From Magnetococcales bacterium (lineage in GTDB: Bacteria; Pseudomonadota; Magnetococcia; Magnetococcales; Magnetaquicoccaceae): a stretch of 64,000 bases of DNA. Under the pieces are notes generated by a model that was not told the origin of the DNA, did no database searches, and worked only from the letters and a program-made list of their open reading frames with translations. This document shows, piece by piece, positions 17,464 to 27,818 of the stretch (the first letter of the stretch is position 1; the number at the start of each line of letters is the position of its first letter). Position numbers and translations under genes: made by a program. The stretch covers positions 62,001 through 126,000 of the forward strand of contig JADGAZ010000004.1 of NCBI GenBank assembly GCA_015231755.1, in the 5' to 3' direction.

Positions 17464-20030
<2,567 letters not shown>

Positions 20031-20092
20031 TCCCGGTCTTTTGTGCGGGTCGATGGCGCCAGACAACTCCGTTCATTTAGGAAGCTCGTTTC

Positions 20093-21226
20093 ATGACCAC
20101 CCAAATCGATGCCCCCTCGACCCTGACGCCTCTGCCGCCCCTGCGCATCGGCGAGTACACCATTCCGGTACCCATTCTTCAGGGCGGCATGGGAGTACGG
20201 GTTTCGGCCCACCGCTTGGCCGCCGCTGTGGCCAACGAAGGCGGAGTCGGCATCATCGCCGCCGTGGCCCTCTCCCTGGCCTCCCGCTACTACGAAAAAG
20301 GGCGGGACTACTACCGCGCCAACGTCAAAGCCCTGATCGAAGAGCTGGAAACCGCCCGCGCCTTGAGTCCAAACGGCATCATCGGCGTCAACTGCATGGT
20401 AGCCATCCGCGACTTCGAGGCCATGGTGCGCACCTCGGTGGAAAACGGCGCGCAAATGATCGTCTCCGGGGCCGGACTGCCCCTGCGTCTGCCGGAATTC
20501 GCCACCTCCAATCCCAGAACCGCCCTGGTTCCCATCATCTCCTCCCTGCGGGCGGCCAAACTGCTGGCCAAACGCTGGCACAAGCTCTACAAGCGCCTCC
20601 CGGACGCCATGGTGTTCGAGGATCCCAACCGGGCCGGGGGACACCTGGGGGTCAAGACCGCCAGTCAGCTCTTCGCCAAAGAGTACGATACCGATACCGT
20701 GGTCCCGGAACTGGCGGAATGGTCCCGCACCGAATACGGCGACGAAATCCCCATTGTCACCGCCGGCGGCGTGTGGGATCGCCACGACATCGATCACGCC
20801 CTCTCCCTGGGGGCCAAAGGGGTACAAATGGCCAGTCGTTTCATCTGCACCTTCGAGTGCGATGCCCACGACCGGTTCAAACAAGCCTTCATCGACGCCA
20901 AGGAAGGGGATGTGGTGATCGTGGACTCTCCGGCGGGTCTGCCGGGACGCGCCCTGAAAACCAGTTTCACCAACACCTTGCTGCGGGGCGGCGAAGTGGC
21001 CACCAACTGCATCGCCACCTGTCTGGAAGCCTGCCGCTGCCGGGAAGAAAAAGAGACCTTCTGCATCGCCCTGGCTCTGCATCGCGCCCAACAGGGGGAT
21101 CTGGAAAACGGTCTGGTCTTCACCGGCTCCAACGCCACGCGCCATACCGGACTGGTCCATGTGAGAGACATCTTCCAGGAACTGTTGTACGGCATTCCGG
21201 TGCGTCCCGTACCGATTCCCGGTTGA
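20093..21226 (+). CDS. nitronate monooxygenase-like FMN protein
   Basis: A 377-residue TIM-barrel flavoprotein of the 2-nitropropane dioxygenase / nitronate monooxygenase family. It has the N-terminal PILQGGMGVRVSAHRLAAAVANEGG, the EDPNRAGGHLG loop, IVTAGGVWD and a GAKGVQMASRF segment that binds the FMN phosphate. The C-terminal part has a Cys-rich ACRCREEKETFC element. Family members oxidise alkyl nitronates or act as FabK-like enoyl reductases. The natural substrate cannot be read from sequence. The nearest gene is a methyltransferase 43 nt downstream. Confidence 0.8.
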   Translation: MTTQIDAPSTLTPLPPLRIGEYTIPVPILQGGMGVRVSAHRLAAAVANEGGVGIIAAVALSLASRYYEKGRDYYRANVKALIEELETARALSPNGIIGVNCMVAIRDFEAMVRTSVENGAQMIVSGAGLPLRLPEFATSNPRTALVPIISSLRAAKLLAKRWHKLYKRLPDAMVFEDPNRAGGHLGVKTASQLFAKEYDTDTVVPELAEWSRTEYGDEIPIVTAGGVWDRHDIDHALSLGAKGVQMASRFICTFECDAHDRFKQAFIDAKEGDVVIVDSPAGLPGRALKTSFTNTLLRGGEVATNCIATCLEACRCREEKETFCIALALHRAQQGDLENGLVFTGSNATRHTGLVHVRDIFQELLYGIPVRPVPIPG

Positions 21227-21269
21227 ATCCCTCAAACACCAACACACTGAAAAAACTGGAAACCCGACC

Positions 21270-22457
21270 GTGCTGCCCGATCCCCGTTCCATTCATCGTT
21301 TCTTTTCGGGATTGTCCGAAGTCTGCCCGGTCTCCCGGTTGAGCCATGTCCATCTGATCCACTGGTCCACCGAGCCGCCCTCGCCCCTGGATCCCCTGCA
21401 AGAGGCGGGATTTTGCGGCACCGTGGTGGCGGCGCGGACCTCGCTGGCCGACGCCATCCGTCACCACCATCCGGGTCTGAGCGTCAAGCTCGACGACCAT
21501 CCCACGGCCCACGAACCGTCGGAACACCTGCTGATGGAACTGCCCCAAGGCCGGGAGGCGGCCCGACTGGCCATCGAGACCGCCTTGTCATCCCTCGCCC
21601 CCGAAGGACGGCTTTGGCTGTTCGGCGAACGGGAATCCGGCATCCGTTCCCTGTCCAAACGCTTTTCCGACACCGAAACCGCCTTGTGCAAAGGCCATCT
21701 GCGACTGCACACCCTTACCCCGGAGAGCCGGGCACTGCCGGAAAAAGGTCAGTCCGCCCCCTTCCGGCCCGAAGCCGACGGTTTTGCCTATATCAAGCAT
21801 GACGGCCTGCGCCTCGCGGTCAAGCCGGGAATCTTCTCCTGGCGCGCCATCGACGCAGCCACGCTGCTGCTGCTCGACGCCATCCGTGAGGCGCCCGGCG
21901 CCCGCGTTCTGGATTGGGGGTGCGGTTCCGGCGTGCTGGGAGCCACCCTGGCCCAACGTTTCCCGGAAACCCGCGTCACCTTAAGCGATGACCTGATCAC
22001 CGCCACCGCCTGCGCCCGGCGCACCGTGGAGATCAACGGCTTAAGCGACCGCTGCGAGGTGGTCACCGAAGATGGCATCGGTCCGGTGCTGGGCAAAAAG
22101 AAATTCGACGCCATCGTCACCAATCCCCCGTTTCACCGCGGGGTACGCACCGATCACGAGGCCACCTTGCATTTTCTCGCCGCCGCCGCCGCCCTGCTGG
22201 CTCCGGGTGGAACCTTGTGGCTGGTGGGCAACCGCTTCATGGATTACGGCACCTTGCTGAAAGAACACCTGGGAGAGGCGAAAGAATTCGACGGAGACGA
22301 CTCCTTCACCGTCTGGCGCGGAGTCAAAAGCGCCCTCAACCCCCGACAAAAATCCCCACACACCCGCCATTTGACCAGCACACGGGAAGACTCCCCCCGG
22401 AATCCCTTCCGGAACATGCCCTCAGGCCGCTGGATCGGAATGGATGAGTTGTCGTAA
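21270..22457 (+). CDS. RsmC/RlmG-like rRNA guanine-N2 methyltransferase
   Basis: A 395-residue SAM-dependent methyltransferase. The C-terminal half has motif I VLDWGCGSGVLG and the catalytic motif IV TNPPFHRG that marks RsmC/RlmG and related base N2-methylases. The N-terminal half resembles a second, inactive methylase fold, as in RsmC. The target is probably a guanine of 16S or 23S rRNA, but which one is unknown. The C-terminal about 35 residues are a polar tail with no match. Confidence 0.8.
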   Translation: MLPDPRSIHRFFSGLSEVCPVSRLSHVHLIHWSTEPPSPLDPLQEAGFCGTVVAARTSLADAIRHHHPGLSVKLDDHPTAHEPSEHLLMELPQGREAARLAIETALSSLAPEGRLWLFGERESGIRSLSKRFSDTETALCKGHLRLHTLTPESRALPEKGQSAPFRPEADGFAYIKHDGLRLAVKPGIFSWRAIDAATLLLLDAIREAPGARVLDWGCGSGVLGATLAQRFPETRVTLSDDLITATACARRTVEINGLSDRCEVVTEDGIGPVLGKKKFDAIVTNPPFHRGVRTDHEATLHFLAAAAALLAPGGTLWLVGNRFMDYGTLLKEHLGEAKEFDGDDSFTVWRGVKSALNPRQKSPHTRHLTSTREDSPRNPFRNMPSGRWIGMDELS

Positions 22458-22468
22458 AGCACATGGCT

Positions 22469-22510
22469 ATGGGTCGATTCCCGGTTTTGTTCAGCCGGGA
22501 TGAGACCCAT
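22469..22510. terminator. imperfect hairpin between convergent genes
   Basis: ATGGGTC-GATTCCCGG pairs with CCGGGAT-GAGACCCAT across a 10-nt loop. It lies between the plus-strand methyltransferase (ends 22457) and the minus-strand TOPRIM-like gene (ends 22533). No clear T tract is present, so terminator function is likely but not certain. Confidence 0.5.
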
Positions 22511-22532
22511 GGACATCGGGATTCGGTCAGGT

Positions 22533-23240
22533 TCAAAGAACTGCGATTTTTTGGGTCAATGCCGCGAAATGAGGACAATAACGAAGAATTCTGTCCATGT
22601 TGGCAGCCGCACGCCTGGAAAATTCTTGATAGCGGTCGGAATTTTTTGAAATACCTTTGGCCTTGTCCGGAACCGGGCGTCCCCGCCCCTTGCAATCCCA
22701 CTCCAACAAAACCAAACCCGGATTCTTGTGGGATTCGGGTGCCGAATCCTCAGTCAGACCGGCCAGCAGCCAACATTCCACCGCCTCCACTGCTGGCGCG
22801 AGGAAGATCCATGGACGGTCTTGTGAATCCATGCCGTCAGGCCACAACCAATCGGTCAAAACAGCCTCGATGTATTGACCACGACCTGCGGGCGTGGTCA
22901 GATCAAAATCATCCGACTGGACTCTTGTCATCTTTTGCAATTTTTCACAAATATCCGCATCCAGATGGACCAGAAAACCATCAAGGGGCAAAGAGGTGGC
23001 AAACAGCCCTCCTCCCGAAACCCTCTGCCGCCGCAGTGCCGGTGGATTGTCAAGACACCATTTGTATACCAGTCGCCACCCACCCTCCTGACCACCTCCC
23101 GCGCTCGTATTGTCCGGATTTGGCTGGATATTGACAAAATTCTGCGCCCCATATCCGTCCAAAGCCGCAGGCAGCAAGATCTTCAACACCACCTGATCGG
23201 TGGAGCCTTCGGTGACCATGCCAATACGTTTGGAGCTCAC
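22533..23240 (-). CDS. TOPRIM-like protein, partner of the AAA ATPase
   Basis: A 235-residue protein with TOPRIM-fold hallmarks: a Glu in VTEGSTD (residue 11), then HLDAD with Asp at about residues 94 and 96. Further on is AVEAVECWLLAG, a feature often seen in the TOPRIM parts of OLD-like proteins. The GTG at 23240 is chosen because it overlaps the ATPase stop as GTGA, and the first ATG is seven codons inside. It would be a metal-dependent nuclease or regulatory partner of the upstream ATPase. Base composition is clearly less GC-rich than its neighbours. I cannot name the exact family. Confidence 0.6.
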   Translation of the reverse strand: MSSKRIGMVTEGSTDQVVLKILLPAALDGYGAQNFVNIQPNPDNTSAGGGQEGGWRLVYKWCLDNPPALRRQRVSGGGLFATSLPLDGFLVHLDADICEKLQKMTRVQSDDFDLTTPAGRGQYIEAVLTDWLWPDGMDSQDRPWIFLAPAVEAVECWLLAGLTEDSAPESHKNPGLVLLEWDCKGRGRPVPDKAKGISKNSDRYQEFSRRAAANMDRILRYCPHFAALTQKIAVL

Positions 23241-24508
23241 AGGGACGATCCCAAGGCATTGGGGATCAAACCACTGATCCACATTTCCGACAAATTCTTG
23301 CCGCGTGCGATTTCGATCCACTCTTCCGGCATCATACCCGGACGGGGCTGCAACCGCTCGATTTTCGTGAAACCGGTACGTGGCTCACGACTGACCACGA
23401 AAATGCGTTGTTCTTCATTGAACAGGTCAAACGCATCCAACGAGGTGGGATTGTGACTGGTGAGAAAAACCTGTTGCGGTCCGATGCCGCTTGCCTGGAA
23501 TTTCTTTTCGCAGGTTACGGCGATCAATTTTTCCAGAAATGCCCGTGTGGCCGACGGATTCAAGGCATTGTCCACATTGTCGAGGGCAAAGATCTTGGGG
23601 GCTTCCGCATGCAACAGCACTACAGCCAGAAACAACAAAAAAAGTGTACCTTCGCTGCTGTCATAAGCGGACAGTGTGTCTCGTTTACGCCTCATGAAAC
23701 GATCTTTGAAATATAACGTTTCATTTCCTGTTTTGACCTGAGAAGAGACCTGATCCGCAAGAGATTGTTTTACAGCAAACTCACTGGCCCATCCAGGCAT
23801 CCAGATCAATCCAAGAATCTCCCTCATAAGGGATACACGATCTCTCGATTCACGATCCTTCGATTTATGGAATTGGTTCAAAACCGTCAAAGCCGCCTGA
23901 GGCAATCCCCCGCCCAACAATCCAACAGGTTTCACAGGCAAGGATTCGATTTCCACACCCCGCAAAAACGAGGTCTGAGGAGCATAGATACAAAATTTGG
24001 CCAGGGTGTTCAATTGGGCTGACAATTCGGGGGGAACATCGATGACCTCTTGAAACCGGTCCCATAAACCACGCTCAGGGGATACGTCCGCACGTTCTTT
24101 TTCAACCCCAAGCAGCTTGATGCCACGATTGCTGCGTCCCAGATAACTGACCGAATCATGCAGAATCTCTTCACTAAAAAAACGCAAAGACTGGTATTCT
24201 TCCCCCGCAGTGATGCGGACATTGTATTTCACATCATCATCCATTGCGGCTTCAAATCCGAAATTGCTTTTCAAGGCCTGATTTTTGAAAGCCGATTTGA
24301 ACAAAGTTGGCACCGAAAGCCGCACGCCCTTACGTTGCAATTCCGCTTCGGTAATGTCACGACTCAAGGAAGCGCTCAATACGCCAATGGCCTCCAGGAT
24401 ATTGGATTTTCCTGATCCGTTCGCACCAATGAACAGATTAACCCGTCCAAACTCCAGTTCGGCCTGGGTAATAGTCTTGAAACCGTTGATGGCAAGCTTT
24501 CTTAACAC
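23237..24508 (-). CDS. AAA_15-type (OLD/ABC-like) ATPase
   Basis: A 423-residue ATPase. Visible motifs are Walker A GANGSGKSN (residues about 28-36), an ABC-like SSEGTLFLLFLAVVLL signature, Walker B FALDNVDNALNP and the H-loop LTSHNPTSLDAF. The middle segment is family-variable. The GTG at 24508 gives VLRKLAINGFKTI, which matches the usual N-terminus of such ATPases; a TTG at 24607 would add 33 unmatched residues. The gene is less GC-rich than those around it and overlaps the TOPRIM-like gene. Two-gene AAA15 plus TOPRIM sets occur in phage-defence systems, so an anti-phage role is inferred. Confidence 0.8.
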   Translation of the reverse strand: MLRKLAINGFKTITQAELEFGRVNLFIGANGSGKSNILEAIGVLSASLSRDITEAELQRKGVRLSVPTLFKSAFKNQALKSNFGFEAAMDDDVKYNVRITAGEEYQSLRFFSEEILHDSVSYLGRSNRGIKLLGVEKERADVSPERGLWDRFQEVIDVPPELSAQLNTLAKFCIYAPQTSFLRGVEIESLPVKPVGLLGGGLPQAALTVLNQFHKSKDRESRDRVSLMREILGLIWMPGWASEFAVKQSLADQVSSQVKTGNETLYFKDRFMRRKRDTLSAYDSSEGTLFLLFLAVVLLHAEAPKIFALDNVDNALNPSATRAFLEKLIAVTCEKKFQASGIGPQQVFLTSHNPTSLDAFDLFNEEQRIFVVSREPRTGFTKIERLQPRPGMMPEEWIEIARGKNLSEMWISGLIPNALGSSL

Positions 24509-24636
24509 CGTTTTATCCGCTTGACCCCAAGGAGAGAATGGAATCCGGTTCTTGTTCGTATCAAAAACCGGGAATCCAGAATACCCAATCAGGGACAGGA
24601 TGTACAATGCTGTTTCTTTTCAGGAAAAAGATAAAC

Positions 24637-25158
24637 CTACACACTCTGATCTACCACCCCCACGCTCCCCCCCTCATCCCCCGCCAACCGCGCCAGCAAC
24701 CCGGTCATGCTCCGGATCTCCTCCGGGGTCAGGTGTGCGAGAATCCGCTCCCCGGCATGGTGCATCACCGCTTCCAAGGCCCGACCGATCAACGGCAAAG
24801 CCGCAGGGGCCAGACGCACCGGCTTGACCCGACGATCCCCGCTGACCGTCAAACGCACGATCAAACCCCGCCCTTCCAGTTGATGCAGCACCTTGGTCAA
24901 CCCCCCCGAGGTGATCAGCAGGGTTTGACGCAGTTGCGAAGGGGTCAATTCATAAGGCTCCGGGGAACGGCGCAGACTGGCCAGCACGTCGAACTCCGCC
25001 GGACTCAGGCCGAACCGCTCCATCACCCCGCAGGCCTGGCCATACATCACCCCGTGGGCGCGATGCAAGGTCAGGGTAAAGGGCAACAAGACCGGATCGA
25101 ACGCCTCGGACCAATGGTCCCGATGGGCCGCGATGATGCGCTGTATAAAGGTATCCAT
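24637..25158 (-). CDS. MarR-family transcriptional regulator
   Basis: A 173-residue winged-helix regulator. The DNA-binding core is LSPAEFDVLASLRRSPEPYELTPSQLRQTLLITSGGLTKVLHQLEGRGLI with the wing VSGDRRVKPV. ATG at 25158 has GGGGGAG before it. It is divergent from an RND efflux operon, and two identical palindromes lie between the start codons, so it probably represses that operon and itself until a toxic ligand binds. No ligand can be read from sequence. Confidence 0.9.
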   Translation of the reverse strand: MDTFIQRIIAAHRDHWSEAFDPVLLPFTLTLHRAHGVMYGQACGVMERFGLSPAEFDVLASLRRSPEPYELTPSQLRQTLLITSGGLTKVLHQLEGRGLIVRLTVSGDRRVKPVRLAPAALPLIGRALEAVMHHAGERILAHLTPEEIRSMTGLLARLAGDEGGSVGVVDQSV

Positions 25159-25188
25159 GACTCCCCCTTGACAGAATTTGACAAAAAA

Positions 25189-25202
25189 TATCTTGCAAGA
25201 TA
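25189..25202. promoter_or_regulatory. probable MarR operator 1
   Basis: Perfect palindrome TATCTTGCAAGATA, 31 bp upstream of the marR start codon. An identical copy is 46 bp away, about 4.4 helical turns centre to centre. Confidence 0.75.
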
Positions 25203-25234
25203 GATAAAATGTCAATATCCTTTCGCTCAAAATC

Positions 25235-25248
25235 TATCTTGCAAGATA
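25235..25248. promoter_or_regulatory. probable MarR operator 2
   Basis: Second perfect copy of TATCTTGCAAGATA, 37 bp before the start of the efflux operon. The two copies together cover the divergent promoter region. Confidence 0.75.
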
Positions 25249-25284
25249 AATAAAACCCCACTGCCATGTCAACGATTCCGGGAG

Positions 25285-26721
25285 ATGACCGTGTCACCCT
25301 TGCGTCCCTCGCTGGCCATTCTGTTTTCGACCGCCTGTCTGTGGGGATGCGCGCTGGTGGGCATGGATTATCGACGACCCGAGGCCGTGAATCCTCCCAC
25401 AGGCTGGCACGCGGCCCTGCCCCACGCCGGTTCTGGGGCCAGGATGACCTCCTGGTGGGAACAATTTCAGGATCAAACCCTCACCAGACTAATCCAGGCC
25501 ACCCTGGAGCAGCATCCCAGCCTGAACGCCGCTCAGGGCGCCATCGAGGCGGCCCGTGCGGCGCTGACCTATCAGCAATCCGCAGATCAACCCCAGGCCC
25601 GTTCGGCGGCACAACTGCAACGTGCGGGCAACAGCCCCAATCCCACCATTATTTCGTCCACCAGCCGGAGTGTGGCCGTGGACGCGAGTTGGGAACTGGA
25701 TCTGTTCGGACGGGTCAAACGGGCCACCGAAGGGGCCGAGGCCAAGGTGGCGGCGCGGCAGGCGGAGTGGCATGGCCTGAAAATTTCGCTGGCCTCCGAA
25801 ACCGCCTCGCTTTACAACGATCATCGCGCCTGCACGCGTCTGAGAGACAGCCTGCAAGAAGAGGTGGAATCCCGTCGTGCCAGCGCGCAGATCACCCGGG
25901 TGGCCACCCGGGCGGGTCTGATCGCCCCGGCGGACGAGGCGATGGTCCAGGCCCGGGTGGCCGACGCCCAGGCGCGTCTGGCGGCCCAGGAGGCGGAATG
26001 CGCCCTGTCCGTCAAGGGACTGGTGGCCCTGACCGGTCTGGATGAACCCCGGTTGCGTGCCTTCCTCCAAGAGGCTGGTCATCGTCCCCTGGTGGCCCCG
26101 CCACTGGCCGTGACCACCCTGCCTGCCCGCCTGCTGGCCCAACGCCCGGATCTGGCCGCCGCCGAACAGGAACTGGTTTCCGCCAATGCGGAGATCGGGG
26201 TGGCCGAAGGGGCCCGTTATCCGCGTTTTTCGCTGCTGGGCGCGGTGGGGGCCGGGGTGGTGACCATGGGAAGCGTCAGCCAGCCAAACCGTCCCTGGAA
26301 TTTTGGTCCGGCGCTGTCGTTGCCGCTTCTGGACGGGGGAGCCATCGAGGCCGGAGTACGGGCAGCCCGAGCGCGCCACACCATGGCCCTGGCCAACTAC
26401 CGTCGCGGGGTCCAGGAAGCGGTGCGGGAGGTGGAAAGCGCACTGGTCAATCTGGAGGCGGTCCGCCTTCGGGTGCAGGAAACACGGGCCTCGGCCCGCG
26501 GTGCGGCGGCCTATCGCAAGGCCGCGGAAGAGAATCTGCGTACAGGGGGGATCAGTCGTCTCGCCCTGGAAGAGGCCCGCCGACAACATCTGGAGGCGGA
26601 ACGGACGGTGATCCAACTGGAAGGACGGGAGGTGCAACAATGGATCAATCTCTACAAATCCTTGGGCGGCGGCTGGGAGTCGGACACCCCCTCTCCCCAA
26701 CCAGACCAGGATCCGGCATGA
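25285..26721 (+). CDS. RND efflux outer-membrane channel lipoprotein (NodT/OprM family)
   Basis: A 478-residue TolC-like channel. The signal peptide ends at the lipobox LWGC (Cys about residue 22). Two repeated outer-membrane efflux halves follow, with family stretches such as SWWEQFQDQTLTRLI, DASWELDLFGRVKRATE, LLAQRPDLAAAEQEL and ALSLPLLDGGAIEAGV. It forms the outer-membrane exit duct for the pump encoded downstream. ATG at 25285 is very close to GGGAG; the GTG two codons later has better spacing and may be the real start. The stop overlaps the adaptor gene as ATGA. Confidence 0.92.
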   Translation: MTVSPLRPSLAILFSTACLWGCALVGMDYRRPEAVNPPTGWHAALPHAGSGARMTSWWEQFQDQTLTRLIQATLEQHPSLNAAQGAIEAARAALTYQQSADQPQARSAAQLQRAGNSPNPTIISSTSRSVAVDASWELDLFGRVKRATEGAEAKVAARQAEWHGLKISLASETASLYNDHRACTRLRDSLQEEVESRRASAQITRVATRAGLIAPADEAMVQARVADAQARLAAQEAECALSVKGLVALTGLDEPRLRAFLQEAGHRPLVAPPLAVTTLPARLLAQRPDLAAAEQELVSANAEIGVAEGARYPRFSLLGAVGAGVVTMGSVSQPNRPWNFGPALSLPLLDGGAIEAGVRAARARHTMALANYRRGVQEAVREVESALVNLEAVRLRVQETRASARGAAAYRKAAEENLRTGGISRLALEEARRQHLEAERTVIQLEGREVQQWINLYKSLGGGWESDTPSPQPDQDPA

Positions 26722-27818
26722 GACCCTTGCTCCCCTGTCTGGCCGCTCTCGCAGCGGGATGCCTGGCTCTGCCGTTCCCGGTCACGCCGGCCCAGGCCGC
26801 CGACAAGCCCCCGGCGGTCCAGGAGGAGCGGGCCGCCCTCACCGTGACCCTGGCCAAACCCACCCGGGAAAACTGGCCCCGGACCCTGCTGGTGAGCGGA
26901 GGGATTTTCGCTTGGCAAGAAGCGGTGGTCGCCTCGGAGATCGGGGGATTGACCATCGTCTGGCTGCCGGTGGACGTGGGCAGTGTGGTGAAACGGGGTC
27001 AGGAGCTGGCACGGCTCTCCGACGAAGGGGTCAAAGCCACTCTGGCCCAACAAAAGGCCAACGTGGCCAAGGCCAAAGCCGCCCTGGCCCTGGCCAAGGC
27101 CAACGGGGGACGGGCCAGGGCCGTGGAGGGGTCCGGGGCCATCTCCGAACAACAGATCACCCAGTATCTCATCGGCGAAGAGTCCGCCGAAGCGGAGCTG
27201 GCCGCGGCCAAGGCCGCCTTGGAACACGAAGAGGTGCGACTGCGCCAAACCCGCATCCTGGCCGCCGATGATGGCATCATTTCTTCCCGCAGCGCCACGC
27301 TGGGGGCGGTGGTCCAACCGGGAGGGGAGCTGTTCCGGCTGGTGCGCCAAGGTCGACTGGAGTGGCGGGCGGAGGTGACGGATGGTCAACTGCCGTTGAT
27401 TCAACCCGGACAAAAGGCCCGCATCGAACTGGCCGAAGGCAAGTCCCTGGAAGCCACCGCACGACTGGTGGCGCCCACCCTGAACCCGGAAACCCGCAAG
27501 GGGTTGGTCTATTTTGATCTGCCGGACAAAGGAGCCTTCAAATCCGGAATGTTCTCCCAGGGGGAGATCCAATTGGGCGAGTCGAGCGCCCTGACTCTGC
27601 CCCAGTCGGCCATCGTGCTGTACGACGGTCACGCCTATGTGTTCGAGCTGGCCAACGGCGGCGACCGGGTGACCCGCCGCAAAATCACCACCGGTCGCCG
27701 GGTGGACAACCGGGTGGAGATCACCTCCGGCCTGGAGGAGAGCGCCCGGGTGGTGGGCAGTGGTGGCGCGTTTCTCAAGGATGGAGACCGGGTGCGGATA
27801 ACGGAGGCCACGCCGTGA
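26718..27818 (+). CDS. RND efflux periplasmic adaptor (membrane fusion protein)
   Basis: A 366-residue periplasmic adaptor. The N-terminus has a signal peptide ending near PAQAAD. The lipoyl/barrel-sandwich half-motifs are ASEIGGLTIVWLPVDVGSVVKRGQELARL and LAADDGIISSRSATLGAVVQPGGELF, separated by an Ala/Lys-rich coiled-coil hairpin. Beta-barrel and membrane-proximal domains follow. ATG at 26718 overlaps the preceding stop. The last codons overlap the permease start in GTGA. Confidence 0.92.
   Translation: MRPLLPCLAALAAGCLALPFPVTPAQAADKPPAVQEERAALTVTLAKPTRENWPRTLLVSGGIFAWQEAVVASEIGGLTIVWLPVDVGSVVKRGQELARLSDEGVKATLAQQKANVAKAKAALALAKANGGRARAVEGSGAISEQQITQYLIGEESAEAELAAAKAALEHEEVRLRQTRILAADDGIISSRSATLGAVVQPGGELFRLVRQGRLEWRAEVTDGQLPLIQPGQKARIELAEGKSLEATARLVAPTLNPETRKGLVYFDLPDKGAFKSGMFSQGEIQLGESSALTLPQSAIVLYDGHAYVFELANGGDRVTRRKITTGRRVDNRVEITSGLEESARVVGSGGAFLKDGDRVRITEATP

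Follow-up and report, generated by a model that had tools for sequence, protein, structure and literature searches.

In OLD nucleases, the ligands of one metal ion (metal A) are a glutamate and a DxD motif, and those of the second (metal B) are an acidic residue located four positions after this glutamate and an S/T-x-E motif; a lysine follows later in the sequence (PMC7049728, PMC6755086). The Gabija protein GajA is described as having likely lost ATP hydrolysis and kept nucleotide binding, and some OLD-family ATPases are not defensive, as seen for Cran1, which has a role in the cell cycle (PMC12796447). PDC-M31 is listed in PADLOC-DB 2.0.0 as a phage defence candidate, that is, as a computational candidate. 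Searches of the open-licence literature revealed no experimental paper under the name PDC-M31, and none was found there for DUF4276 combined with defence terms. Here we describe a gene pair encoded in a 64,000-nt stretch of DNA (the window) from an uncultured magnetotactic lineage, and we compare it with these systems.

Anatomy of the gene pair

The first-pass annotation had described two genes that overlap by GTGA and are lower in GC than their surroundings. Both open reading frames lie on the minus strand exactly where they had been placed (Table 1), with the ATPase gene (A) upstream of the second gene (B), and the overlap suggests that their translation is coupled. The GC content is 48.9% for the ATPase gene and 53.5% for the second gene compared to 61.7 ± 3.3% for the 40 other ORFs of the window, which bears out the difference in composition. 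At third codon positions the values are 53.5% and 55.1%, respectively, compared to 73.1 ± 4.8% for the same 40 ORFs. Other genomes and viral contigs have A and B conserved side by side, so the two are not chance ORFs. The genome containing the window has a single copy of the pair, which is flanked by an rsmC-like gene (a methyltransferase-like gene, identified by reading) and a gene for a MarR regulator. Rfam searches gave no match at positions 20000-27000, and no tRNA was found in the window. One promoter-like and two terminator-like sites were detected, which is no more than in shuffled sequences.

Table 1. Coordinates of the two genes, their motifs and the repeat surrounding them. Positions are those of the window.
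Feature	Position	Strand	Remarks
ATPase gene (A), PDC-M31A	23237..24508	-	GTG start, 423 aa; RecF/OLD-like ABC ATPase (AAA_21)
Walker A GANGSGKS (A residues 28-35; K34)	24404..24427	-	K34 in 26/26 homologues covering the site
Walker B/D-loop IFALDNVDNALNP (A residues 306-318)	23555..23593	-	Asn311 at the position of the expected catalytic Glu
GTGA overlap	23237..23240	-	B start codon on A stop codon; read from the sequence
Second gene (B), PDC-M31B	22533..23240	-	GTG start, 235 aa; TOPRIM-like predicted nuclease
EGSTD motif of B (E11, D15)	23196..23210	-	Both residues in 27/27 homologues
DxD motif of B (D94-A-D96)	22953..22961	-	27/27 homologues
E155 of B	22776..22778	-	Place of the OLD metal-B Glu; E in 26/27 homologues, D in one
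K199 of B	22644..22646	-	Place of the OLD catalytic Lys; 27/27 homologues
Inverted repeat, left arm	22476..22488	+	13 bp, perfect; flanks the A-B pair
Inverted repeat, right arm	24564..24576	-	Same 13-bp repeat GATTCCCGGTTTT

The 13-bp repeat occurs in the 3.84-Mb genome in the two listed copies only, and an inverted repeat of 13 nt placed in this way was obtained for 7 of 3000 random intervals. A second genome of the genus (G006) retains the left arm, and the pairs of other genomes have no comparable flanking repeat. The inverted repeat may mark the boundary of an insertion, or it may be part of a hairpin at positions 22455-22535.

Both proteins match the candidate defence family PDC-M31

A search against defence-system models, which had been proposed as a check for this locus, assigned both genes to the same family. 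The ATPase matches the PADLOC model PDC-M31A with an E-value of 8.9e-98 (profile positions 2-389 of 395), and B matches PDC-M31B with 2.3e-18 (positions 1-226 of 233). PDC-M31B models were the only PADLOC models matched by B up to an E-value of 1. Furthermore, B has no Pfam family at an E-value of 1 or better and no NCBIfam family, and searches of NCBIfam and PDB sequences with B yielded nothing meaningful. With PHROGs, general ATPase families only were found for A and nothing for B. The first gene had been called an AAA15 ATPase; AAA_15 does match (1e-13), but AAA_21 is the best Pfam family (9e-22).

To place B, an alignment of 20 B sequences (A4) was used that includes the window, a relative and viral contigs. 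All 20 match PDC-M31B, the best with 7e-77, and some show weak matches to RloB, DUF4276, OLD-like TOPRIM and Toprim. The A4 members have no clear match to the Pfam family DUF4276 (PF14103), the best being 4e-4. A profile-profile comparison of B with DUF4276 gave an E-value of 4e-12 over 199 columns, which is the value of a single comparison, and two unrelated controls gave nothing. In addition, the B protein of Pseudanabaena is annotated as a DUF4276 family protein. The second gene, which the first-pass annotation could not assign, has thus found its family in PDC-M31B, a remote relative of DUF4276. From these sequence comparisons we judge the window pair to be a divergent member of the catalogued candidate defence family PDC-M31. 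The earlier description of the locus as a candidate defence module is upheld, both by the matches of the two halves and by relatives located in mobile and defence contexts (see below).

B carries a predicted TOPRIM active site

The EGxTD and DxD motifs noticed earlier are present in B as EGSTD and DAD. Residues E11, D15, D94, D96, E155 and K199 agree with TsOLD and BpOLD in order and spacing when the sequences are compared. In the B protein encoded on the Enterobacter plasmid, which is a strong PDC-M31B match (3.2e-92), the equivalent of E155 is apparently missing. The predicted model of B has a pLDDT of 85, and the four best rows of the VIA comparison with this model are C-terminal TOPRIM regions of OLD proteins, with Z-scores of 6.2-6.8, values below 8 not being decisive; retron Eco2 and GajA rank below these regions. 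Foldseek searches with the B model gave no match at an E-value of 0.001 or better and no significant match to viral models, among which an RloB-like protein was found at rank 19. When the B profile was compared with OLD TOPRIM regions collected here, again as a single comparison, the result was not significant (E-value 0.086, covering 24 columns over the EGxTD motif). Judged by its conserved residues, B is probably a TOPRIM-type metal-dependent nuclease.

The ATPase has an asparagine at the catalytic position

The predicted model of the ATPase (pLDDT 86.8) matches Rad50, SMC, PtuA, GajA and PARIS ATPases in the PDB with Z-scores of 16.5-18.9, and the protein also resembles RecF and RecN. The Walker A motif and the ABC-like signature reported for this gene were confirmed, the latter as the signature-like motif SSEG. 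The reported Walker B motif is not of the usual form, since it reads ALDNVD and has an asparagine in place of the catalytic glutamate. N311 is present in all 27 aligned ATPase homologues, in which the Walker B motif has the form DN[VIL]D..LNP; the Walker B region was not part of the patterns used to fetch the viral homologues. The asparagine was also read in three of four plasmid members, which were inspected by pattern. DUF4276-adjacent ATPases of the phylum have DEPELGLHP or close variants at this place (DE in 20 and EE in one of 22 proteins), and in OLD proteins Walker B is EE or ED wherever the motif was found. Because the catalytic glutamate is replaced by asparagine, ATP hydrolysis by PDC-M31A is probably slow or absent. 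In the open-licence literature, no report was found of the Walker B asparagine across PDC-M31 or of the link to DUF4276.

Location and inheritance of the pair

In five genomes of the genus, the pair is found at four different chromosomal sites. The window and G006 have a common site between the rsmC-like methyltransferase gene and marR; contig C26 of G006 begins inside the ATPase, and thus the junction of A and marR is left uncovered there. Contig C30 of the same genome (positions 1-1201, L044) has an unrelated gene upstream of marR, not the ATPase. In G008 the pair is located elsewhere and rsmC and marR are 51 bp apart, showing that the site occupied in the window is empty, and in G002 it lies some kilobases off, at the opposite side of this neighbourhood. 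The pair is absent from the near-complete congeners G001 and G003. In the rsmC-marR gap of G003 (contig C13, L050 2940-4750), an ORF of about 215 aa (SQAVTFDDVWKMFQENAQ...) is present instead in two almost identical copies arranged in tandem, which identifies this gap as a variable spot.

Within the genus, a tree of A gives the same order as a two-gene core tree. Since A follows the species here, two histories are equally likely: the pair resided in the genus and was relocated and lost, or it was transferred repeatedly. Beyond the genus, A of other Magnetococcales groups with viral contigs and with a genome belonging to a different family of the phylum, and the ATPases of viral contigs are nearer to A of the window than the ATPase of G013, a genome of the same family as the window. 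This mixed tree and the nearer viral ATPases indicate horizontal transfer. Homologues that are inherited vertically and are syntenic in related genomes had been named as the pattern that would speak against a defence module. Such a pattern was found in part: the tree does follow the species in the genus, but the differing sites, the congeners lacking the pair and the mixed tree beyond the genus do not fit it.

The distribution also bears on a different function, in which A and B would serve DNA repair or chromosome maintenance in the manner of RecF, RecN or Rad50 and, like archaeal Cran1, would have no role in defence. The likeness of the ATPase to Rad50, SMC, RecF and RecN would agree with such a function, as would the cell-cycle role of the OLD-family member Cran1 (PMC12796447). 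However, the pair is rare and patchy, B being present in 12 of 398 genomes of the phylum, and its positions shift; it is missing even from the near-complete congeners G001 and G003 and is carried by phages and plasmids. We therefore regard a function in repair or chromosome maintenance as very improbable.

Mobile and defence contexts

All 18 viral contigs with a full-length ATPase match (IMG/VR entries, taken as labelled there) have the B gene directly behind it, and B directly follows the ATPase in each of nine Magnetococcales genomes. In one contig, an evident prophage, the pair is located between replication-type genes and the genes for the small and large terminase. Plasmid copies were detected on mobilizable plasmids of 5.8 kb and 10.3 kb and on one conjugative plasmid. 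On the conjugative plasmid pE5_001 of Enterobacter hormaechei (L135 8001-16008), a complete CBASS operon (effector, cyclase, E1-E2 and JAB) and a tyrosine integrase come after the pair, and the three together are a small plasmid-borne defence island. In the congener G009, the pair is located next to a CRISPR array. This array (L047 11213-16150, G009:C149) is long, has a 28-bp repeat (TCTCTTGGCCGCCTACGCGGCGGCAAAC) with a period of about 60 bp and extends from directly behind the pair to the end of the contig.

The presence of the pair within a prophage and on plasmids, both small mobilizable ones and a conjugative one, could also mean that it is used by mobile elements competing with each other, as in prophage exclusion or plasmid incompatibility, and not for host immunity, the chromosomal copies being remnants of such elements. 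We consider this unlikely, because the chromosomal copies of five species of the genus keep the motifs, and no evident phage or plasmid genes were seen in the stretches read. The biochemistry would be the same in this case, so that the beneficiary and not the mechanism would be another one. Carriage on plasmids, together with the coupling of A and B, would likewise suit a toxin-antitoxin-like pair in which B is toxic alone and is neutralised by A, thereby maintaining mobile elements, and the Pfam text for AAA_21 indeed describes a putative AbiEii/type IV toxin-antitoxin domain. In that description, however, the toxin would be the ATPase and not B. Moreover, defence by an ATPase and a TOPRIM effector on separate chains is already known from PARIS, and on one plasmid the pair is found beside CBASS. 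A toxin-antitoxin function is thus improbable.

Proposed mechanism

We consider it probable (roughly 0.7) that the pair belongs to PDC-M31 as a divergent module and acts as an anti-phage (or anti-mobile-element) abortive system, in which the ATPase would be a nucleotide gate for the TOPRIM nuclease B. We infer the role in defence from the family, the context and the analogy with PARIS and OLD. PDC-M31A would bind ATP as a RecF/OLD-type ABC ATPase and assemble head-to-head; having asparagine instead of glutamate, it could be a nucleotide-gated scaffold or sensor with slow or no ATP turnover. PDC-M31B, a TOPRIM-type metal-dependent nuclease produced from the coupled downstream cistron, would be held by A. 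An infection cue or the loss of ATP would then free B or switch it on. The nuclease would attack nucleic acid, with tRNA (the target of AriB) or DNA (the target of OLD) as possible substrates. This cleavage would stop phage growth at the expense of the cell. ATP binding and assembly, nuclease activity, gating, trigger, target and the defence phenotype of the pair are all predicted here.

More tentatively, PDC-M31 might form a distinct split ATPase-TOPRIM defence class, which we see as possible, if doubtful. Hydrolysis would then have been lost family-wide through the exchange of the Walker B glutamate for asparagine and a changed D-loop, and a switch set by ATP occupancy would free the nuclease when infection alters nucleotide levels or the assembly of A; the DUF4276-linked relatives would have kept the hydrolytic site.

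With this analysis, a pair from an uncultured magnetotactic lineage is now placed in a listed, uncharacterised candidate defence family. PDC-M31 gains a testable anatomy, consisting of a TOPRIM active site predicted for B and an ATPase differing from its closest relatives at the hydrolysis residue. The copy located beside CBASS on the Enterobacter plasmid is a tractable version for work in the laboratory.

Comparison with known systems

OLD proteins of classes 1-3, GajA of Gabija and retron Eco8 likewise combine an ABC ATPase with a TOPRIM domain, and the order of their catalytic residues is the same as in the window pair. They are single chains, and Gabija has a helicase and the retron a reverse transcriptase as partner, whereas the window pair consists of two chains and has neither of these partners. 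The OLD family proper (classes 1-3) was rejected as an assignment, since ATPase and TOPRIM are encoded here by separate ORFs. Gabija, Septu and retrons were rejected as well: no GajB helicase, PtuB HNH nuclease or reverse transcriptase is the partner of the ATPase, the partner being PDC-M31B.

PARIS (AriA and AriB; class 4 OLD) likewise has its ATPase and its TOPRIM-type effector split over two neighbouring genes, and the PARIS complex is matched by the ATPase model with a Z-score of 16.9. B of the window does not match any AriB model, and PARIS was rejected. A hit of the ATPase to the AriA model was not counted as PARIS, because it is of a general AAA type, covering the same stretch of the protein with the same length as the Pfam AAA_21 hit. 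The resemblance to OLD and PARIS proposed in the first-pass annotation thus holds for the OLD-type order of TOPRIM residues kept in B, but does not extend to membership in PARIS. RloB and HEC-01B matched B relatives weakly (RloB 7 of 20, best 0.0034; HEC-01B 2 of 20, best 3e-5), in both cases far below PDC-M31B.

Pairs of an AAA ATPase and DUF4276 have their two genes in the same order as the window pair, and the remote homology between B and DUF4276 extends over about 200 columns. The ATPases differ in that the DUF4276-linked proteins keep the catalytic glutamate, which is replaced in PDC-M31A. DUF4276 genes are common in Magnetococcales, with up to seven matches per genome, and an AAA ATPase is encoded upstream in those inspected (L165-L188); the two apparently form an amplified two-gene module in this order. 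With PDC-M31 itself, the window pair shares gene order and size, and both proteins match over nearly the whole models. B of the window is a divergent member, scoring 64.8 bits compared to 306.5 bits for the member encoded on the Enterobacter plasmid.
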